Source of the DNA: Chitinophagaceae bacterium 26-R-25
GTDB lineage: Bacteria; Bacteroidota; Bacteroidia; Chitinophagales; Chitinophagaceae
Assembly (NCBI GenBank): GCA_029906195.1
Contig: JARWSJ010000001.1
Coordinates: 2,170,001 to 2,234,000, forward strand
Direction of reading: 5' to 3'
Length of the DNA stretch: 64,000 nt
Position numbers and translations under genes: made by a program. The notes under the pieces are model-generated. The model was not told the origin of the DNA. It worked only from the letters and a program-made list of their open reading frames with translations, and searched no databases. Positions 6,309 through 54,135 of the stretch are shown one piece after another (position 1 is the first letter of the stretch; each line of letters starts with the position of its first letter).

Positions 6309-7979
6309 ATGTTTAGTCCCAAGCTATTTGACATATTACGACAGTATTCTTTCCGTCAGTTTGGACGGGATTTAATGGCTGGAGTAATTGTTGGTATTGT
6401 AGCACTACCCTTAGCCGTCGCATTTGCCATTGCATCGGGTGTTTCACCTGAAAAAGGATTGTTTACAGCCGTTATTGCCGGGTTTATTATTTCTGCCCTG
6501 GGAGGAAGCCGGGTACAAATCGGTGGTCCAACCGGGGCTTTTATCGTGATTGTGTATGGCATTGTTCAGGTGCATGGCCTGGCCGGTTTAATTGCGGCTA
6601 CGTTTATGGCAGGCTGCATGTTGATCATCATGGGTTTCAGCAAACTTGGTACTATTATTAAGTTTATTCCATACCCTCTAATCATTGGTTTTACGAGTGG
6701 CATCGCACTGATCATTTTTTCATCGCAATTAAAAGACGCGTTTGGATTACCTATAACAAATCTTCCAGCAGACTTTATCAGCAAATGGCAAAGCTATTGG
6801 CACCACATCAGCCAGGTGAATTGGTATGCCCTCGGCGTAACCTTGTTTACGATTGCCGTAAGCCTTCTATGGCCCATGATTACACGAAAGGTTCCCGGCT
6901 CGCTGATTGCCATTGCAGCGACTGCCGGGCTGGTTCACGTACTTCATTTACCGGTGGAAACCATTGGCGATAGATTCGGAGCGATCTCGTATGGGTTTCC
7001 TTCTTTGTCAAATCCCGGATTAAACTTTGCCTCCATTCAAAAACTTATACAACCTGCATTCACCATCGCGTTGCTCGGTGCGATTGAATCACTATTATCT
7101 GCGGTGGTGGCGGATGGCATGACGAGCGATGAGCACGATTCCAACACCGAACTGATCGCGCAAGGAACGGCGAATATTTTTTCGTCTCTTTTTGGTGGAA
7201 TTCCCGCGACTGGCGCCATTGCAAGAACTGCCACCAACATCAAAAACGGGGGACGAACGCCTGTTGCAGGTTTGGTACACGCGATCACACTGCTGGTCAT
7301 TATCCTTTTTGCAGGCAAACTCGTGGCCTATATTCCCATGGCAACACTTGCGGGCATTTTGATCATCGTGGCCTACAACATGAGTGAATGGGAAACATTC
7401 GTATCGATGTTAAAAGGCAGTCGCCAGGATGCTGCCGTGCTTTTGATCACGTTCGTTTTAACAACGCTGGTAGATCTTTCAGTGGCTATTGAAATAGGCA
7501 TGGTGCTGGCTGTCTTTCTTTTTATGCGCTCAATGATCCAGTTAACCAATGTGAAATGGCTGACTGCCAAGGCACATACACCGGATTCTTCTCTGCCGGT
7601 TGATGAAGTGGAAGGATTTACTATCAACAAGCATGTGGAAGTTTTTGAAATTATGGGACCTCTATTTTTCGGCGCCGTATACAAGTTCAAAGATGCAATG
7701 AAGCTTATTGAAAGGCCGCCAGAAATACTGATCATTCGAATGAGGCATGTATCTATGATTGACGCTACCGGAATAAAAGCCATCGCAGAGTTTTATAAAG
7801 AATCGAAACACAGAGGCACAAAACTTATACTTTCCGAAGTGACAAGCATACAGGTGATGGAGTCGCTTAAAAATGCCCGTTTGCTGTTTAAAATTGGTAA
7901 GGCGAATGTTACGTACACTTTTAACGATGCAATACGCAGATGCAAAAAAATCGAAACACAGGAACGCAGATTGTCATGA
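6309..7979 (+). CDS. SulP-family inorganic anion transporter with STAS domain
   Basis: The 556-residue inner-membrane transporter has about 12-14 hydrophobic segments (about 20-410). It carries the SulP signatures GVSPEKGLFTAVIAGFI and QIGGPTGAF. A C-terminal STAS domain (about 430-545) contains the VSMIDATGIKAIAEF loop. SulP proteins move sulfate, bicarbonate or other anions with H+ or Na+; the substrate cannot be chosen here because neither sulfate-assimilation genes nor carbonic anhydrase adjoin it. It is preceded by a 95-residue unknown gene at 3 bp. The final residues (about QERRLS) and the TGA stop lie inside a CGCAGATTGTCATGATT-type dispersed repeat. Confidence 0.93.
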   Translation: MFSPKLFDILRQYSFRQFGRDLMAGVIVGIVALPLAVAFAIASGVSPEKGLFTAVIAGFIISALGGSRVQIGGPTGAFIVIVYGIVQVHGLAGLIAATFMAGCMLIIMGFSKLGTIIKFIPYPLIIGFTSGIALIIFSSQLKDAFGLPITNLPADFISKWQSYWHHISQVNWYALGVTLFTIAVSLLWPMITRKVPGSLIAIAATAGLVHVLHLPVETIGDRFGAISYGFPSLSNPGLNFASIQKLIQPAFTIALLGAIESLLSAVVADGMTSDEHDSNTELIAQGTANIFSSLFGGIPATGAIARTATNIKNGGRTPVAGLVHAITLLVIILFAGKLVAYIPMATLAGILIIVAYNMSEWETFVSMLKGSRQDAAVLLITFVLTTLVDLSVAIEIGMVLAVFLFMRSMIQLTNVKWLTAKAHTPDSSLPVDEVEGFTINKHVEVFEIMGPLFFGAVYKFKDAMKLIERPPEILIIRMRHVSMIDATGIKAIAEFYKESKHRGTKLILSEVTSIQVMESLKNARLLFKIGKANVTYTFNDAIRRCKKIETQERRLS

Positions 7980-46832: not shown

Positions 46833-47813
46833 ATGCGAAAAGCTTATCGTTTCACCTTTATAACCCTCGCCGTTGTGCTGATGAGCATGACCGCTTACAA
46901 GAAGCTCGCTTCTATTCTCATTTCAAAAAATGATATTGATGAGGCCGTAAAAAATTATCTGTTGAATGATGTATTTGCGACCAATTATGATTCATGGTAC
47001 AAAATACGTCCGCAAGGTTTGAAGTTGCCATCAGGAGATCGAGCAGCGCTCATGTCTGATCTTTTAAAAAGAGCAAAGGACCTGGTAAACAGTAAAGAAT
47101 TTAAAGAGAGTTATGAGATCAGTATCGAAACCAATAAAGAAGCATACGACTACAAACACAAGGACACACTGCAATCAAAAACAGGTTTGGCCTATAACAA
47201 CCTGATAACTGCACAGAAGCAGGTTTCCGAATATCAAATGCCGGATGCTGAAGCAACAAGGAAAGCGATGATCCAAACAATGAATTCCTTGCCGCCATCT
47301 GTTCTCACACAAGCGGTGGGCCAGCAAATAGTTGAGATCAAGGAACAATTGCAAGACAATGAAAAAACGGATGCAGAGAAAAAGCAGCTACAAAAAAGCC
47401 TGAAAGAAAAACAGGATCTGCTGGCTTTATCAAAAACAAACCCCAACGAGTTTAAGAAAAAAGCTATTGAAAGCTTGTATCCTGCAGACATGAATGAAAA
47501 AATGAATAACGCTAAAAACGAACAGGACCAACAGTTCCAGGAACAATTGAAAAAGTTGAAAGAGGATATGGCGCAGGAACAAAGGAACTACAATACGTAC
47601 AAACTGGAAAATGTGCTGCCTGAAAAACTCAAAGCATTTATAGAAGAAGCGAAATCAGTGGATTACGATGCAACCGTAATTAAAGGAAGATTTACCAACC
47701 CTGTGTATGAAAGAAAAAACAACAATTGGAAATACTTTTACCGCATGGGAAAAGAGCCAATGCAGCAAGCAATAAGCTTTGCTGAGAAATGGTTAGGCGA
47801 ATTGAAAAAATAA
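46833..47813 (+). CDS. Hypothetical coiled-coil protein with N-terminal anchor
   Basis: The 326-residue protein begins with a basic stretch and hydrophobic segment (FTFITLAVVLMSMTAYKKL), either a signal anchor or signal peptide. A long charged helical region (about 120-270) includes KTDAEKKQLQKSLKEKQDLL and QEQLKKLKEDMAQEQRNYNTYK, probably coiled coil. The C-terminus FTNPVYERKNNNWKYFYRMG is aromatic. I do not recognise a family or function. Monocistronic and terminated by a GTAGAGACAAGG repeat hairpin. Confidence 0.7.
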   Translation: MRKAYRFTFITLAVVLMSMTAYKKLASILISKNDIDEAVKNYLLNDVFATNYDSWYKIRPQGLKLPSGDRAALMSDLLKRAKDLVNSKEFKESYEISIETNKEAYDYKHKDTLQSKTGLAYNNLITAQKQVSEYQMPDAEATRKAMIQTMNSLPPSVLTQAVGQQIVEIKEQLQDNEKTDAEKKQLQKSLKEKQDLLALSKTNPNEFKKKAIESLYPADMNEKMNNAKNEQDQQFQEQLKKLKEDMAQEQRNYNTYKLENVLPEKLKAFIEEAKSVDYDATVIKGRFTNPVYERKNNNWKYFYRMGKEPMQQAISFAEKWLGELKK

Positions 47814-47817
47814 ATCA

Positions 47818-47898
47818 GTAGAGACAAGGCAATGCCTTGTCTTTTTTGCGCAATCAAACTGCCAGTATAGGCAAGACAAGGCATTCCCTTGTTTCTAC
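47818..47898. repeat. GTAGAGACAAGG inverted repeat doubling as terminator
   Basis: Left arm 47818-47842 and right arm 47873-47898 are inverted. The left arm itself is a hairpin, AGACAAGG (47822-47829) with CCTTGTCT (47835-47842), followed by T residues: an intrinsic terminator for the 46833 gene. It lies between convergent genes. Confidence 0.85.
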
Positions 47899-50732
47899 CG
47901 TCCGGCTTTTCTTCTTCGCATATACATCCCTCCGCCGATTACTGCAATGAGCAGCGTTCCGCCGAGCACGTATTTCCAATAACCATCGCCGCCGGCAATA
48001 ACGGGATCAACAGTGCCAACCAACACAGGCGCTGCCCAGTAGTAAGGCAATGTCCTTTCTTTTGAAGCTTTTTTCATGAACTCCAATTTTGCTTTTTGCA
48101 GTGCAACATCTTTGGGAAACCCTTGTGCAAGATATTTGTACATCAACTCTGTAAGCTGGTATGTGGATTCATTGTTCACCGACCACAAATTCGTAAGCGA
48201 CGAAGGAATTCCAACAGCTGCAAAAGCCCTGTTGAAGCTGAACACACCTTCTCCCCTGTACAATCTTCCTGTTCCCGTTTGACACGCTGATAGTACAATA
48301 AAATTTGTGTTCATGGTATTGCCGGTAATGATGTCCGACAAATAGAGTGCGGAGTCCGCAAAATAAATAACAGGTTCTCCTATTGCGCTGGAGTCGGCTG
48401 CATGGGTATACAATTGAATGACCTGGTATTTTGAAAAATCATCGAGGAACTGTTGGCGCGACGCATCCTTCGTAACATAAACGGCAGGCGAAGAAAAATA
48501 GTCGCTGATATTATCGAGTGATCCATCGCTGTTCTGCAACGAAGGCAAATGCATTCCCGCAGGATATGTAACAGGTGCCATCCCCATAAATTGCCTTGTT
48601 CCGGCATCAACATTACTCCTCACCTTATTGGTCATTAAAAATTTGGCAGAATAGGTGTAACTGATCGCATGATCTTCTACCATGTATTTTACAGAAGGCC
48701 CGCTATAGGAAGTTACCAAAGCTTCGAAAGGAAAGAAATTATCTCCGGGAGATATGATCAACCTGCTCTTAAACCTGCTGGTTCCCGCAATTAATTTATA
48801 CAGATCGTTTGCGCATTTTTCAAAGGCACCAAAGAACCTGTTGAGCTTATCCGCATCATCACAATACTGAAGGAAACAAAGACTTAGTTTATCATATTGT
48901 TTCTTGTCAATCCTGTAAAGGTTCTTTTCTGTTTTGGAAACATGCAGCGCATAAATGGCGCTGTCACCCGAAAAAATTTCCAGCAGCGACTGATCGTTTT
49001 CCAGTAAACGTTCCTGTACATTTTTCACCGTGATAAATACAGAATCGACAAGTGATTGGCTATAGGCTTTGTTGTGGCCACGAATATCGTCCTGCATTTT
49101 TTCGAGCACCTTTTTGTTGTCGAACAACTGATTCTGGTATTCGCGATATTGCGACGAGTCAGAAGGCAAGTCCTTCAAAATCCTTTCAAGCAGCACAATG
49201 TTTCTTTTAAGCTGCATAAATTTCACCACATCTTTTTTACCAATCGCATCGAGTTCGCGTATCTGATCATTCAGTAAAATAGCCCTGCTCTTTTCAAAAA
49301 AATAAAACGCGGCATCCGCATTGTGTGAAAAATTACAGGCGTCTATAGCATGCTCATAAAGGCGGTGGCCGCTTTCGCGCCAGAAAAGCTTCGATTGCAC
49401 ATCTGACTGCTCGGTCTTTAACCGGTCGAAAAATCTATCGCTTGTTTGATAAACGCTGATCGCCTTTTCAAGATCGGCCATTGCACCTGTTGCCTTGTAT
49501 TTCGCCAGCCACGCATCTCCCAGGTCGATCACAAATCCCGTAAGATATTTTACTTGTATGTTTGCGAGGGACATGTGCAACAACATTTTTTCTGAACCAC
49601 CCGGCTCCAGCAGATCAAATGCCTGCTGAAAAGTTTTCATCGCGTTATTGAAGTCACCTTTTTTAACATAAATATTGGCAACATTGTCGAGGATGTTGAA
49701 GATTTCGAAAACACGGGTTTGTTCATCAATATCTTTAATTCTCTTAAACGTGTTAATGGACTGCTGATAAAGAGCCAGCGCCTTGTCGTATTCCCGGGTT
49801 TTATTGTAGTAAACTTCGAAGGCGATATTGTCTAACACAGTCGCGTATCTCACATCATCATATTTGCTTTTCCTTGCGTCGTCCAGCATCTTATTAAAAT
49901 AGTATAAGGATTGCCTGACATCTCCTTTCCGTGCGTACAACTGGCCCAAGTTCCCATACACATAAGGCAAATACGCCTGGCTTTCCCTGCTGTTGTGTGT
50001 TTCAACAAACTGCAGCAATATATTTTCAGCTTCATCATATTTTCCAAGATTCATCAATGAAAGCCCCTTCCATATTGGTAGCACACTTGCCAGATAAGCG
50101 CTGTTGAAGTTTTTTTGAATTGTTTCTCCATACCTTACATAATTCAGGCAACCATGATAGTCTCCAATATCAAAGGCGTGGTCGGCCGCATCAAACAACA
50201 GCCTGATAGCATAAGGCGATTGAATATTCTCTTTTGCAATGATAGAAAAACAACTGTCAGTCGCATACTTCTTTTCAATTGGCAAGTGAAGTGAATCATA
50301 GAATTTGCTCAGAAAAAAATAGTCCAGTACCAACAAACCATTACTGCCCGCAGAATTGTTTTTTGGCAAACGGGCCATTGCAATTGACTGTTTCGCAGAA
50401 GCAACCGCATTCAGAAAGTCACCTCTTCTCGAATACATTACTCCCAGCGTAAGCAACAGATTGGCGTGGGTAGTATCTTCTTTATACGCACATTTATTTA
50501 TGTTCGACTTATACTGCAGAAGTTCTTTCAAATAATCCTCCGAATATCCTTTTACTGAGTCCCTTAGGTAAAGCGTCCGCTTAAATAAAACATCCCTGTC
50601 AGGGCATTGCGCCGACAGGGATGAGGAAATAGTTAGCAATAAAAATATGCAGATGAAAGCTCTTATCCTGGCATTGGTTCCTGGTGCATCGGCCACGTAT
50701 AGTATACTTAACAAGCGGAAGCTTCGTTTCAT
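47895..50732 (-). CDS. TPR-CHAT domain cysteine protease, membrane anchored
   Basis: The 945-residue protein has an N-terminal extension, a hydrophobic signal segment (FICIFLLLTISSSLSAQ), many TPR-like repeats (about 70-420), a helical linker, a CHAT domain (about 620-905) and a C-terminal transmembrane segment (VLGGTLLIAVIGGGMYM) with a basic tail. CHAT domains are caspase-like peptidases; the His777 (LYTHAAD) and Cys817 (LSACQTGTG) dyad is present. The sensor-like TPR and protease would face the periplasm. The first 28 codons derive from a decayed subtilase copy read in another frame, so the start is uncertain. It is last in a sigma-TPR-subtilase-CHAT cluster. Confidence 0.88.
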   Translation of the reverse strand: MKRSFRLLSILYVADAPGTNARIRAFICIFLLLTISSSLSAQCPDRDVLFKRTLYLRDSVKGYSEDYLKELLQYKSNINKCAYKEDTTHANLLLTLGVMYSRRGDFLNAVASAKQSIAMARLPKNNSAGSNGLLVLDYFFLSKFYDSLHLPIEKKYATDSCFSIIAKENIQSPYAIRLLFDAADHAFDIGDYHGCLNYVRYGETIQKNFNSAYLASVLPIWKGLSLMNLGKYDEAENILLQFVETHNSRESQAYLPYVYGNLGQLYARKGDVRQSLYYFNKMLDDARKSKYDDVRYATVLDNIAFEVYYNKTREYDKALALYQQSINTFKRIKDIDEQTRVFEIFNILDNVANIYVKKGDFNNAMKTFQQAFDLLEPGGSEKMLLHMSLANIQVKYLTGFVIDLGDAWLAKYKATGAMADLEKAISVYQTSDRFFDRLKTEQSDVQSKLFWRESGHRLYEHAIDACNFSHNADAAFYFFEKSRAILLNDQIRELDAIGKKDVVKFMQLKRNIVLLERILKDLPSDSSQYREYQNQLFDNKKVLEKMQDDIRGHNKAYSQSLVDSVFITVKNVQERLLENDQSLLEIFSGDSAIYALHVSKTEKNLYRIDKKQYDKLSLCFLQYCDDADKLNRFFGAFEKCANDLYKLIAGTSRFKSRLIISPGDNFFPFEALVTSYSGPSVKYMVEDHAISYTYSAKFLMTNKVRSNVDAGTRQFMGMAPVTYPAGMHLPSLQNSDGSLDNISDYFSSPAVYVTKDASRQQFLDDFSKYQVIQLYTHAADSSAIGEPVIYFADSALYLSDIITGNTMNTNFIVLSACQTGTGRLYRGEGVFSFNRAFAAVGIPSSLTNLWSVNNESTYQLTELMYKYLAQGFPKDVALQKAKLEFMKKASKERTLPYYWAAPVLVGTVDPVIAGGDGYWKYVLGGTLLIAVIGGGMYMRRRKAGR

Positions 50733-50850
50733 TAGTCAGCGATGGTGCGTTTAGTTACATCAAGGCCCTGAAGGTATAACTTTGTTGTGGCTTAAAATCT
50801 TCCGGTCATGAAATTGGCACATTCATTACTGCAACAACTTTGGCCTAAGT
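50582..50850 (-). repeat. Duplicated subtilase-3'/CHAT-5' segment, copy B
   Basis: About 270 bp similar throughout to 51131-51425. It spans a degenerate subtilase C-terminus and the functional start of the CHAT gene. Shared stretches include TTAAGTAYACT, GCCAG-ATAA and CTGTCGGCGCAAT. A deletion of about 60 bp distinguishes it from copy A. Confidence 0.75.
50674..50848 (-). pseudogene. Decayed C-terminal fragment of a second subtilase
   Basis: On the minus strand ATGAATGTGCCAATTTC, the RPTAKIYLQGIG-like region and LVKYTIRGRCTRN mirror the intact subtilase's MNVPF, GFRPTAKIYLQGIGVNN and VPVKYTVNGQYIGN. In-frame stops and a missing GSSFVAP serine motif show it is dead. It lies directly between the small lipoprotein gene and CHAT. 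Confidence 0.72.
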
Positions 50851-51021
50851 AGGGATCGGTGGTGGTGGGGGCGGTGGCGGCTTAACAGTTATATCTCCTG
50901 TTGTAGATTTTGCAGAATCAGCATTTTGTTTTGGCTTGGTTACGCTTTTAGTGCAACCAACTGCGACTAGCATAAAAGCTGAAACTGCCGCCAATGCAAC
51001 AATCCGTTGTGTTTTTTGCAT
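50845..51021 (-). CDS. Small proline-tailed lipoprotein, probably a truncated subtilase paralogue
   Basis: The 58-residue product begins MQKTQRIVALAAVSAFMLVAVGC with a lipobox cysteine at 23. It continues with a short linker (DSAKSTTGDITVK) and eight prolines. The linker and poly-proline echo DSAGDTTLKPPPPP of the neighbouring intact subtilase lipoprotein. Immediately after its stop, DNA homologous to the subtilase C-terminus begins. It therefore looks like the N-terminal stub of a second subtilase whose catalytic core was deleted. It could still be made as a small lipoprotein. Confidence 0.65.
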   Translation of the reverse strand: MQKTQRIVALAAVSAFMLVAVGCTKSVTKPKQNADSAKSTTGDITVKPPPPPPPPIPT

Positions 51022-51130
51022 ATAAGATAATTTTTAGCCGTCGAACCTAAAACAAATCATTTGCGGCTGCAATAGCCATTTATAGCCATGATGTGATAGC
51101 TGGAGATAGCCGCGAAAGCAAAAATGCTCC

Positions 51131-51425
51131 CAATAAAAAATCCCTGCCAGCGAATTGCGCCGACAGGGATGAAGTCTAGTCAGAAGGAAAATGTAAACGA
51201 AAGCTTTTATCTGGCACTAGTTCCCGATATATTGGCCATTTACAGTGTACTTAACAGGCACTGCATTGTTTACACCGATGCCTTGCAGATATATTTTTGC
51301 TGTAGGTCTAAATCCATTTTGTATTATATAATTTACAACTCTGCCACTCACTACAGGCGCTACAAAAGACGAACCTTCCACCGGATATAAGAGAAATGGC
51401 ACATTCATCGTACAACAACCTGTAT
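51131..51425 (-). repeat. Duplicated subtilase-3'/CHAT-5' segment, copy A
   Basis: The functional subtilase C-terminus (51217-51425) is followed by a non-coding stub (51131-51216) matching the CHAT signal-peptide coding region: ATAAAAGCTTTCGTTTACAT versus the CHAT gene's ATAAGAGCTTTCATCTGCAT, and CATCCCTGTCGGCGCAAT in both. The reading frame is lost in this copy. Confidence 0.75.
51132..51170 (-). terminator. Candidate terminator after subtilase, made from CHAT stub
   Basis: On the minus strand ATCCCTGTC pairs with GGCAGGGAT (one GU pair) around a 14-nt loop, followed by TTTTTATT. The same segment in the CHAT gene encodes its mature N-terminus, so this hairpin is inferred to be a re-used coding remnant. 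Confidence 0.55.
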
Positions 51426-52605
51426 CGCTTTTTAAAACGCCCAGCGTTACATATTCGTCAGAATAGTTTTGATAGTAACATGGCCACATTACGTCCCTAT
51501 TTCCCGTCAACCCGGTCACGCTTATGAGGTCGGATGTTGACTTTGAAAAACATGCCGGGAAAAACATGTGATGCGGAGTAAGCTGATTTGAAGGCTTCAC
51601 AGGTTGATAACAAAGCTTGTCATTATTATGATGTTCGCTCGTATCATTTCCCGCCGCCGCAACTATTACTGTCGAGTCATATATTTTGGTGAAATACTTT
51701 GTAAACACCGAATCCTGCTCGCCATAATAGCCAAGGCTGGCATTGATAACCGATGCGTTGTTTTTACGTGCATAAGCCAATCCGCAGCTTACAGAAAATA
51801 CGCTTCCGTGGCCATGTGCATCCAATACTTTCAGTACCATAATTCGCGGCGACTGATCTGCTACCTGCGATAATGCGATGGCCGTAGCTGCACTTCCATG
51901 CCTGCTTGCATTGTCATCCAGCAGGATCTTAGGATCTTCTCCCGGAAGGAAATTGTACAAAGTATTTCCGGGAACCGGCTCCTGCCAGATCAGGCTTCGT
52001 ATCTGTGGATCAAACAGTGTAGTATCAAGGCCCGTATCCAGGATGGCGAGAATTCCCCGCTTGCTTGCTGTGCCAGGGAAACCTTTAATCCGGACACCCG
52101 GCCTGATCGATTGAACGATCGTATCCATTCCACCTCCACCGCCAGATGTCGGTTGATTTGGAGTGGGTGGCGCCAGGATAATTTTAGGTGTTTTAGGTGG
52201 TGGCGGCGGTTTCAGCGTGGTGTCACCGGCGCTGTCTATCACAATTAAATTGGCTGTTATGTTTATGAGATTAGGATCGCAAGGGCAAGTGTAAACTTTG
52301 ATGCTGTCTGTATATGAGTATATCTTTTTACCGCCCCCTGCTCCGTTATTTCCTTCTTCCCTTCCCTTGCCTGTACTGTCATAGGGATATTTGAGTCCCC
52401 TGACATACGCGATAACGCTGTCAAGACTTCTCTTCTTTTCGTCATCACTCGCGTTGGGATTGGTGGAGACGTTCCAGTTTACGTAATTGGGGAAGTTGTA
52501 TATCCTTACTTTAGTTTGACGCTTGCAGGCCGACAAAACAAAAACCATAACGCTTACTCCAAGTATTATGGTAATGGCCCGTTCTTTTGCCCAGGTGTAG
52601 TTCAT
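51217..52605 (-). CDS. Subtilisin-like (S8) serine protease lipoprotein
   Basis: The 462-residue protein has a lipoprotein signal with Cys27 (FVLSAC), a charged and poly-proline linker (about 45-160), and an S8 catalytic domain. The triad is visible: Asp190 (ILAILDTGLD), His236 (ASRHGSAAT) and Ser413 (GSSFVAPVVSG), with Asn320 (AAAGND) for the oxyanion hole. It should act on the periplasmic side of a membrane. There is no obvious I9 propeptide. It lies between the TPR/anti-sigma-like gene and CHAT, so processing of a regulator or of CHAT is plausible but inferred. Confidence 0.9.
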   Translation of the reverse strand: MNYTWAKERAITIILGVSVMVFVLSACKRQTKVRIYNFPNYVNWNVSTNPNASDDEKKRSLDSVIAYVRGLKYPYDSTGKGREEGNNGAGGGKKIYSYTDSIKVYTCPCDPNLINITANLIVIDSAGDTTLKPPPPPKTPKIILAPPTPNQPTSGGGGGMDTIVQSIRPGVRIKGFPGTASKRGILAILDTGLDTTLFDPQIRSLIWQEPVPGNTLYNFLPGEDPKILLDDNASRHGSAATAIALSQVADQSPRIMVLKVLDAHGHGSVFSVSCGLAYARKNNASVINASLGYYGEQDSVFTKYFTKIYDSTVIVAAAGNDTSEHHNNDKLCYQPVKPSNQLTPHHMFFPACFSKSTSDLISVTGLTGNRDVMWPCYYQNYSDEYVTLGVLKSDTGCCTMNVPFLLYPVEGSSFVAPVVSGRVVNYIIQNGFRPTAKIYLQGIGVNNAVPVKYTVNGQYIGN

Positions 52606-52618
52606 TTACAGTCGTTTT
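52602..52618 (-). promoter_or_regulatory. Motif AAAACGACTGTAAATGA at subtilase start
   Basis: It overlaps the ATG and matches AAAACGGCTGTAAATGA at the sigma-factor start (54132-54148) at 16 of 17 positions. The overlap with ATG may reflect a shared translational or operator signal. With only two instances the claim is weak. Confidence 0.35.
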
Positions 52619-52665
52619 GCAATATGATTGGTAAATAATGACCAGTGGTGGGCTACGGAAGAGAG

Positions 52666-52785
52666 TCGTTAGTTGTTGGTTGTTAGGCCTTCTGCTCAAC
52701 TTTTTTCCAATTTAGCTGCCAGATATTATTTGCAAGATTGCATTATAAAGTCTAACAACTATCAACTACCAACAAACAACTATTT
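52666..52785. repeat. Inverted TAACAACTAACAAC-word repeat
   Basis: Left arm GTCGTTAGTTGTTGGTTGTTAG (52666-52687 region) and right arm CTAACAACTATCAACTACCAAC (52751-52772 region) flank about 60 nt between the TPR protein and subtilase genes. Confidence 0.8.
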
Positions 52786-52787
52786 CA

Positions 52788-53513
52788 CTACATTTTTTTC
52801 AACCATTGTTCTGCAATGTCTTTGCCTTCAAGATTTTGGTCAACAACTTCTTTGAGAAGTATATGAGCTCTTTCTTTATCCTGCGCCTGGTTGCGTTTCA
52901 TAAGGGTAAGGGCGAGATAAAACTTGCCGGGATTTGAATAAAGATTTTTTGTAGAAAGATCTTCGAAATAAGAAATGGCCTTGTCGTATTGCTGCAAACG
53001 CAATGCGGCTATACCGGCATATCTTTCCGCAAGATCTTTTGTATTGTCATTTTTGTAAATGGACTCAAATGTTTTAAGCGATTCTTCAAGTTTGCCTGCA
53101 TTGAATTGATCAAGGGCCTCCTGCATGTTATCGTGTGCACCCATGCTTACGCTGAGGGTTGTCAACTGACTGTCAATATATTGGTTAGCCAGTTTTTCTG
53201 TGGAAACCGGTTTGAAAAATAACCAGCTCATTACCACGGCTACCAGGAAAAGGCAGGCTGCGGCATAAATTACAGCCCTGCGCATAGATATAACCTTTGC
53301 AGGCTGGGATGCACGTTGATTGAAGTTAAGTTGTCTGAAGCGCTCTCTTCTCTCATCATTTGCCATATCCGCTGCTGCCTGCTGACCGGAAAGATAAAAA
53401 GCAACGTCTTCGGCAAAAGAAGCATCGTTCTGTATGCGTTCATCAAAGGATTTCTTTTCATCAGGTGTTGGGGTGCCTTTGAAATAATCTTCTATGTACT
53501 CTAAATTGTTCAT
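52788..53513 (-). CDS. Single-pass membrane TPR protein, anti-sigma-like
   Basis: The 241-residue protein has an N-terminal cytosolic segment (about 1-75) resembling Bacteroidota anti-sigma proteins: YIEDYFKGTPTPDEKKSFDERI and FAEDVAFYLSGQQ. One transmembrane helix follows at about 80-100 (VIYAAACLFLVAVVMSWLFF), then a periplasmic TPR region (about 120-230, ERYAGIAALRLQQYDKAISYFEDL). Its start is 13 bp after the sigma gene stop, the normal place for an anti-sigma factor. The TPR half is unusual for that role. Anti-sigma function is inference. Confidence 0.8.
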   Translation of the reverse strand: MNNLEYIEDYFKGTPTPDEKKSFDERIQNDASFAEDVAFYLSGQQAAADMANDERRERFRQLNFNQRASQPAKVISMRRAVIYAAACLFLVAVVMSWLFFKPVSTEKLANQYIDSQLTTLSVSMGAHDNMQEALDQFNAGKLEESLKTFESIYKNDNTKDLAERYAGIAALRLQQYDKAISYFEDLSTKNLYSNPGKFYLALTLMKRNQAQDKERAHILLKEVVDQNLEGKDIAEQWLKKM

Positions 53514-53526
53514 TCTGACTAAGGGT

Positions 53527-54135
53527 TTACTGTTTATACATGTGTCTCAATTTTTCCATGCATCTCAGTCTGCTGGTTTTGGCAACGGCCGCAGTTTTAA
53601 AACCTACCATCGCTGCTATTTCTTTATCGCTGAAACCATCTGCAAAAAGCAATAGCATCTGTTTACAATTTTCTCCGATCTGACTTAGTCGTTTCCTCAG
53701 CAAATCAAAATCCGTTTTCTCTATTAGTTGCTGGATAATGGTTTTACTGGTGTCCGACATAGTGTTTAATGCGTCTGTTAAAACAAATCCGTGATGCATT
53801 TCATTCTTCTTAGTCGTGTTTTTTCGAACCTGGTCAACACATTTGTTGTGGAAAATCTGATATAAGTAAGTTTTTAGTGAGGATCTTTCCTGGAAATTGG
53901 CATTTACTACGTTGTTAATCACCGTAATAACTGCATCTGAGTATGCGCTGAAGGCATCTTCATAGTTAACCGAATACTTATGCCTTCCTTCCTCGATGAA
54001 ATAGGCAAACTTCAGGTAAAGGGCATTTTCATACTCTACATGTCTGTTATCTTTTCTTCTCAATCCCTCGATGATGTCGGTATCTGTAATAGACGTTGAA
54101 TGCATAATAGCCTTAATGGGTTCTAAATTAATCAT
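53527..54135 (-). CDS. Sigma-70 family (ECF-like) sigma factor
   Basis: The 202-residue protein has region 2 (about 60-110: EDAFSAYSDAVITVINNVVNANFQERSSLKTYLYQIFHNKCVDQVRK) and region 4 (about 150-200: CKQMLLLFADGFSDKEIAAMVGFKTAAVAKTSRLRCMEKLRHMY). It directs RNA polymerase to a dedicated regulon. It heads the cluster with the membrane TPR protein, subtilase and CHAT protease, so regulated proteolysis of an anti-sigma factor is a natural model. Met11 (54105) is an alternative start. Confidence 0.88.
   Translation of the reverse strand: MINLEPIKAIMHSTSITDTDIIEGLRRKDNRHVEYENALYLKFAYFIEEGRHKYSVNYEDAFSAYSDAVITVINNVVNANFQERSSLKTYLYQIFHNKCVDQVRKNTTKKNEMHHGFVLTDALNTMSDTSKTIIQQLIEKTDFDLLRKRLSQIGENCKQMLLLFADGFSDKEIAAMVGFKTAAVAKTSRLRCMEKLRHMYKQ

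Follow-up and report, generated by a model that had tools for sequence, protein, structure and literature searches.

A TPR-CHAT protease as the probable site-1 protease of a membrane anti-sigma factor in Chitinophagaceae bacterium 26-R-25 and related Bacteroidota

To our knowledge, few substrates have been assigned to bacterial CHAT proteases other than those of CRISPR and gasdermin loci. A 64,000-nucleotide stretch of Chitinophagaceae bacterium 26-R-25 (assembly GCA_029906195.1, contig JARWSJ010000001.1, positions 2,170,001 to 2,234,000; hereafter the window) raises the question of what such a protease may cut when its gene stands near that of a sigma factor. The window contained four intact open reading frames (ORFs) on the minus strand, at the coordinates given by the first-pass annotation: an extracytoplasmic function (ECF)-type sigma factor (SIG, 202 amino acids (aa), 53527..54135), a putative anti-sigma factor (ANTI, 241 aa, 52788..53513), a subtilase lipoprotein (S8, 462 aa, 51217..52605), and a TPR protein with a caspase-like CHAT region (CHAT, 47895..50732). 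CHAT is probably the site-1 protease that cuts ANTI, a membrane anti-sigma factor, and thereby frees SIG, with S8 as an accessory protein. The sequence itself points to a likely substrate of CHAT, to the bond that is probably cut, and to pocket residues that would recognise it. The first-pass annotation had proposed a stand-alone protease-to-transcription module, tentatively for envelope stress or defence; a recurrent, CRISPR-free protease-to-sigma set and the covariation between CHAT and ANTI agree with the modular part of this proposal, but S8 falls outside the core, and CHAT is unlike the type III-E protease Csx29 in its predicted location.

Candidate cleavage point in ANTI and its covariation with CHAT

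SIG scored above the cut-off of the NCBIfam model sigma70-ECF (TIGR02937; 1.9e-13, 50.4 bits against 42.9) and just below that of Pfam Sigma70_r2 (22.4 bits against 24), and a profile built from 14 SIG proteins matched solved ECF sigma factors (best 1.8e-14). Cys157 and Cys192 (window numbering) were invariant in the 14 aligned SIG rows. ANTI, which starts 13 bp downstream of SIG, gave only TPR-type matches, all under the Pfam cut-offs. Among its relatives, the median SIG-ANTI gap was 3 bp, and 136 of 155 adjacent same-strand pairs overlapped or lay at most 20 bp apart. Topology was called by our own hydropathy and charge rule. The window ANTI was predicted to comprise an N-terminal cytoplasmic part of ~80 aa, one transmembrane segment at about residues 84-100, and a periplasmic TPR part. 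Exactly one membrane segment was found in 159 of 162 ANTI proteins (median start, residue 84), and its inner flank was more positive than its outer flank in 149 of these 159. A gene directly behind that of a sigma factor, a predicted cytoplasmic N-terminus, and a single transmembrane segment fit a membrane anti-sigma factor, and the first-pass description of a membrane protein placed like an anti-sigma factor was borne out across the relatives.

CHAT contained TPRs and a CHAT domain (PF12770; 1.2e-36, 127.1 bits against a cut-off of 24), and its catalytic dyad, H777/C817, was kept in 21 of 21 and then in 133 of 133 aligned proteins. It also carried a signal-like N-terminal segment and a C-terminal membrane helix followed by a basic tail, both ends having been missed by the first-pass annotation. 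The C-terminal membrane segment occurred in 153 of 163 CHAT proteins, with a net positive tail in 146 of the 153; a hydrophobic N-terminus was found in 151 and both ends in 141 of the 163. From this pattern of membrane segments and flanking charges, both the TPRs of ANTI and the TPR-CHAT portion of CHAT are predicted to lie in the periplasm. The structural model of CHAT (mean predicted local distance difference test (pLDDT) score 83.9, predicted template modelling (pTM) score 0.79) had Csx29, DdvA, and separase as its best folds; a search of the PDB with the CHAT domain as a single sequence gave nothing useful.

A restricted column was located ~25 residues past the membrane, directly before the first TPR helix of ANTI, and corresponds to Met124 in the window. 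In all 136 distinct ANTI proteins with a CHAT in the same locus, this putative P1 position was occupied by Arg (69), Met (57), Lys (5), or Leu (5), and the residue after it was mostly Gly, Ser, or Asp. The entropy of the column was 1.35 bits; among linker columns 101-132, only Tyr112 (1.47 bits) came near. The same four residues were found in 9 of 10 ANTI proteins tested later. In the SIG-ANTI model of a relative (L146), the matching Met opens the only stretch of at least three residues under pLDDT 50. Met124|Gly125 (codons at 53139..53144, minus strand) is therefore put forward as a candidate, the predicted CHAT cleavage point, on the basis of the restricted column and its covariation with CHAT.

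Covariation was computed for 133 ANTI-CHAT pairs (59,508 column pairs), three pairs having been dropped because their L5 loop was uncovered. The top two column pairs by mutual information with average product correction (MI-APC) were Met124-S738 (0.535) and Met124-Y775 (0.484), Met124-Y858 ranked 4th, and Met124-N854 ranked 12th (0.309) and 3rd by normalised MI-APC. When P1 was Arg, CHAT 738 was Glu in 67 of 68 pairs and CHAT 854 was Asp in 68 of 68; when P1 was Met, CHAT 738 was uncharged in 56 of 56 (acidic in none) and CHAT 775 was Tyr or Phe in 46 of 56. Position 775 is two residues before the catalytic His, and position 854 follows the conserved Trp850 at a distance of four residues, within the loop behind model strand 844-848. 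In clan CD peptidases, S1 specificity is described as arising from alpha1/L1, L4, and L5, with a conserved aromatic residue on L5 (accessible text of PMC4357240). By analogy, CHAT 738 and 854 appear to map onto the clan-CD S1 pocket.

Changes within the Arg clade were concentrated on the same residues. In a Met block of four loci, 4 of 25 near-invariant CHAT columns had changed, E738 and D854 among them, and in a Lys block of two loci these two were the sole changes among the 25. A further locus with Lys at P1, L221, carried E738/E854. A Pagel-type likelihood test of P1 Arg against D854 favoured dependent change (likelihood ratio 29.5, p 6e-6), subject to the usual caveat for such tests. The 738 rule also fitted 8 of ten further pairs that had not been used before. 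This covariation between ANTI and the CHAT active site supports the suggestion that CHAT acts on ANTI.

Recurrence in Bacteroidota, the subtilase, and neighbouring genes

Matches to the window CHAT were sought in 59 genomes, among them the one it comes from, and relatives of both SIG and ANTI were present in 13 of the 20 regions fetched around CHAT matches. A profile of ANTI was made from 14 rows from CHAT-match loci, and linkage was evaluated in 24 genomes picked mainly for having CHAT: a PF12770 match was found within 12 kb of 31 of 42 ANTI matches (E<1e-15), versus 1.3 expected by random placement. Without the 14 profile-source rows, which are linked by construction, CHAT was near 17 of 28 ANTI matches. 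In the reverse direction of the same comparison, ANTI was near only 32 of 73 CHAT matches; therefore, many CHAT proteins belong to other settings. ANTI (E<=1e-15) was detected in 30 of 247 genomes of a phylum-wide draw and in 171 of 298 genomes of an order-wide draw. Forty chosen phylum-level ANTI regions contained CHAT in 30, SIG in 34, and S8 in 4 cases, and 60 order-level regions contained them in 44, 56, and 4 cases, respectively. The module hosts are environmental bacteria, many of them cultured.

Loci were also picked by CHAT, as the best 80 of 270 relatives of a CHAT alignment of six module rows, a sample that leans to the module since the query was made of module members. At least 5 kb was available on both sides in 54 of the 80, and the recurrence of the gene set first described in the window was evident there: 42 of the 54 had SIG and ANTI, 38 had S8, and 31 had all four genes. 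The loci with all four genes came from Pinibacter, Arcicella, Dyadobacter, Runella, Spirosoma, Lunatibacter, Mucilaginibacter, and others, and their gene order was collinear. Elsewhere, CHAT was often convergent or divergent relative to SIG-ANTI, and the linkage is therefore not merely that of one inherited operon. Genomes G314 and G490 harbored 36 and 17 CHAT-profile matches, respectively, forming large paralogous sets. The window's own genome contained a second CHAT protein of ~1795 aa (L002, G000:C2:736025-736852); proteins of this size were also found in G001, G002, G003, G008, G009, and G029, and none had ANTI (E<1e-15) within 12 kb.

S8 matched PF00082 (5.6e-8, 32.9 bits against a cut-off of 21.8) and carried the lipobox LSAC. 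Both proteases had been described as catalytically intact, and this was upheld for S8 as well as for CHAT: D190/H236/S413, together with N320, were kept in 56 of 56 aligned S8 proteins (E<1e-10 matches of 350-900 aa only, the window S8 included). The N-terminus of S8 was variable, with a lipobox, a signal or membrane anchor, or none evident; S8 proteins beside CHAT in L164, L166, L172, L184, L188, L193, and L201 had no evident signal and are possibly cytoplasmic. S8 was rejected as part of a conserved core because, among pairs that kept the linker residue, the fetched stretch showed no S8 in 65 of 69 of the Arg type and 20 of 57 of the Met type. S8 looks like an accessory outside the core.

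The nearest named relatives were Pinibacter aurantiacus and P. soli, members of Chitinophagaceae; both had the same cluster, with CHAT identities of 89% and 86%, respectively. A decayed direct duplication of the S8 tail and the CHAT start (50584..51259) was detected by repeat search, with copies 543-548 bp apart (D1, 76% over 49 nt; D2, 90% over 41 nt), and includes a small ORF on the minus strand that reads as a proline-rich lipoprotein (58 aa, 50845..51021). P. soli (L035) had a 69-aa CHAT-like fragment at the duplication spot (6995-7204), whereas in P. aurantiacus (L034) S8 overlaps the CHAT start and no CHAT-start fragment was listed. This duplication between S8 and CHAT, together with the differing arrangements in the two relatives, makes it uncertain which start codon the window CHAT uses. 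Convergent with CHAT, a gene at 46833-47813 on the plus strand encodes a 326-aa protein with a signal-like start, which occupied the same place in L034 and L035 and matched no Pfam family above cut-off. PADLOC, run on five proteins, gave a generic TPR match only.

Other envelope proteins were observed near the module. A ~650-aa PKD-like, probably outer-membrane protein was near SIG-ANTI and CHAT in ten loci (L050, L052, L087, L091, L092, L093, L096, L097, L099, and L105), nine of which also had a ~350-aa lipoprotein; the two are possible alternative sensors. A family of ~260-310-aa lipoproteins adjoined CHAT in L042, L045, L046, L048, L049, L053, and L117. Most had a YGDS-like motif, and 6 of the 7, whose ends were read, finish in a PRPP motif with hydrophobic residues after it.

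Proposed mechanism and alternative explanations

In the proposed mechanism, ANTI would keep SIG inactive at the inner membrane, with the N-terminus of ANTI in the cytoplasm and its TPR domain in the periplasm. CHAT would be anchored in this membrane too, its TPR domain and caspase-like domain likewise facing the periplasm, and a signal might be sensed by the TPRs of CHAT or ANTI, or by way of S8 or some other protein of the envelope. CHAT would then cut ANTI on the outer side of the membrane, ~25 residues away from it, at [Met/Arg/Lys/Leu]|[Gly/Ser/Asp], which is Met124|Gly125 in the window; the remaining stump would be cleared by general intramembrane and cytoplasmic proteases, and the freed SIG would transcribe its own regulon. 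The computed basis consists of the linkage of the genes, their predicted membrane topology, the preserved catalytic residues, and a linker position of limited residue choice that covaries with CHAT residues of the S1 type; from it we infer the cut in ANTI, the SIG-ANTI binding, the later steps, the signal, and the regulon. When the regions upstream of SIG and of CHAT were searched for dyads that might form a common promoter motif, mostly T-rich dyads were obtained; some k-mers, such as GGAAACA and TGTTACC, stood out, which may reflect close relatives.

Several results weigh against this mechanism. The intended negative control failed, as ANTI proteins without CHAT in the fetched stretch kept Arg, Lys, or Met at P1 in 23 of 27 cases. 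Position 854 was mixed when P1 was Met (Asp still in 10 of 56) and was Asp in 4 of 5 cases when P1 was Leu, and L251 (Lys) and L244 (Leu) retained E738/D854. The 738 rule failed in two of the ten further pairs, none of which was of the Met type: L289 combined Arg with A738, and L294 had Ser at P1. By raw mutual information, which favours variable columns, Met124-N854 ranked only 26,640 of 59,508, its signal emerging after correction for column background. SIG-ANTI covariation was also concentrated only weakly at the N-terminus of ANTI: N-terminal columns, which make up 76 of 229, were involved in 7 of the 10 highest-ranked SIG-ANTI pairs but in 18 of the highest-ranked 40, and the SIG-ANTI model of L146 (pTM 0.63) gave no interface evidence. 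Fold searches with this model had TPR-type chains among the matches listed and were uninformative on the sigma interface.

The covariation itself could be explained by vertical inheritance, if two old clades, Met-type and Arg-type, differed widely without any direct contact between CHAT and ANTI. The covariation rests on a small number of independent switches. On a CHAT tree that left out the L5 columns and kept 738 and 775, parsimony counted just 6 changes of P1 between Arg and another residue, and a pairwise independence test was left with one supported pair, not enough for a decision. Clade background contributes to the covariation, as Met124 scored up to 0.31 with SIG columns, and 854 alone is at background by MI-APC because its 0.309 does not exceed this value. 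Inheritance alone would, however, leave unexplained why the linker column is limited to four residue types across both clades when most of its neighbours vary, and why reversals within the Arg clade fell selectively on E738 and D854. The likelihood test favouring dependence and the frequent arrangement of CHAT and SIG-ANTI in convergent or divergent order instead of in one operon further argue against this explanation, which is considered highly unlikely.

It is rather unlikely, though less so, that CHAT regulates ANTI without cutting it, as a TPR-CHAT sensor or scaffold that alters the grip of ANTI on SIG, the linker residue being a docking contact. Such an arrangement may hold for DdvA (8rot, 8rw5), a transmembrane anti-sigma factor according to its PDB titles, which was among the best folds of the CHAT model and whose chain matched CHAT profiles; a docking contact would be able to covary too. 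However, the catalytic dyad was invariant in all 133 aligned proteins, the positions that covary are next to the catalytic His and within the L5 loop, the mostly small residue after P1 resembles that of a cut site, and the dyad has aligned His and Cys counterparts in DdvA as well. S8 could likewise be imagined as the site-1 protease for ANTI, with CHAT cutting another target such as the neighbouring lipoproteins, since its catalytic residues were intact in every aligned protein and it was present in 38 of the 54 full CHAT loci, including the 31 with all four genes. This assignment is very improbable: most Arg-type and many Met-type pairs kept the linker residue with no S8 found nearby, some S8 proteins, which lack any evident signal sequence, would remain outside the periplasm, and the linker residue tracks the CHAT pocket. 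Cleavage of ANTI by CHAT is the preferred explanation.

Comparison with known systems

The closest described counterpart is the type III-E system Csx29-Csx30-CASP-sigma, in which Csx29 cuts Csx30, an inhibitor of a sigma factor (accessible text of PMC10028731). The two share a TPR-CHAT protease, a sigma inhibitor as the actual or proposed substrate, and an ECF-type sigma factor, and CHAT resembles Csx29 in combining TPRs with a caspase-like fold, Csx29 being the best fold of its model. Unlike type III-E, no RAMP (PF03787) match at E<=0.01 was found in the window's genome, the same search having found PF03787 in 4 of 14 genomes; other Cas genes were not scanned in the window ORFs. SIG reached only 31.6 bits on the type III-E sigma model NF041236, far under its cut-off of 100. 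A CRISPR setting was rejected for want of a RAMP match in the genome. Csx29 is cytoplasmic, whereas the prediction for CHAT is a periplasmic body with a membrane anchor, and a cytoplasmic Csx29-like role was rejected on this predicted topology; Csx30 was purified as a soluble two-domain protein, whereas ANTI is a 241-aa membrane protein. The module, as proposed, works like Csx29-Csx30-CASP-sigma yet outside type III-E. In the Craspase TPR-CHAT chain 8d9h, a Ser aligned with CHAT 854, and deletion of Met427 in Csx30 of Desulfonema ishimotonii is described as stopping cleavage, although alanine scanning found no essential residue there. This Ser and Met427 would loosely fit a non-Arg pocket, the two facts coming from different proteins.

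DdvS/DdvA of Myxococcus xanthus is similar in pairing an ECF sigma factor with a transmembrane anti-sigma factor that matches TPR-CHAT (8rot/8rw5; described in part in PMC12288465 and PMC4374960). DdvA combines anti-sigma, transmembrane, TPR, and CHAT parts in one 991-aa chain, whereas the window has two genes, with the candidate cut site in the linker; DdvA shows that the anti-sigma and TPR-CHAT parts can be one protein. DdvS is stated to control an antiphage island in Myxococcus (PMC12288465), and a defence regulon is therefore worth considering for SIG, although no feature of the window speaks for it. ECF54 neighbourhoods, with a model sigma factor from Geodermatophilus, also place an ECF sigma factor beside subtilase and CHAT genes; in the part of PMC8999054 available, no anti-sigma factor is proposed and a carboxypeptidase is in the context, and the likeness drawn here is one of gene context.

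In the DegS-RseA-type pathway, DegS is a PDZ serine protease. There, a membrane anti-sigma factor is cut outside the membrane as the first step, a parallel already drawn for the type III-E system in the accessible text of PMC10028731, and a caspase-like cysteine protease would take the place of DegS here. Given the predicted periplasmic location and membrane anchor of CHAT, the logic of the module resembles the cutting of a membrane anti-sigma factor by a site-1 protease more than it resembles Csx29. Among open-literature titles and abstract openings listed, with subscription papers and bioRxiv outside this scope, no CHAT protease was seen as an anti-sigma site-1 protease. More tentatively, and with somewhat more doubt than confidence, periplasmic TPR-CHAT proteins may form a phylum-wide family of dedicated site-1 proteases of TPR anti-sigma factors, with paralogous sets per genome and a P1 preference (Arg, Lys, Met, or Leu) that switched several times along with the substrates; this family would be a CRISPR-free counterpart of Csx29-Csx30-sigma, possibly feeding defence genes as DdvS does. 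If the proposed mechanism is true, caspase-like proteolysis would be an ordinary envelope-to-transcription route in Bacteroidota, and the CRISPR Craspase pathway would be one branch of a broader protease/anti-sigma/sigma logic.

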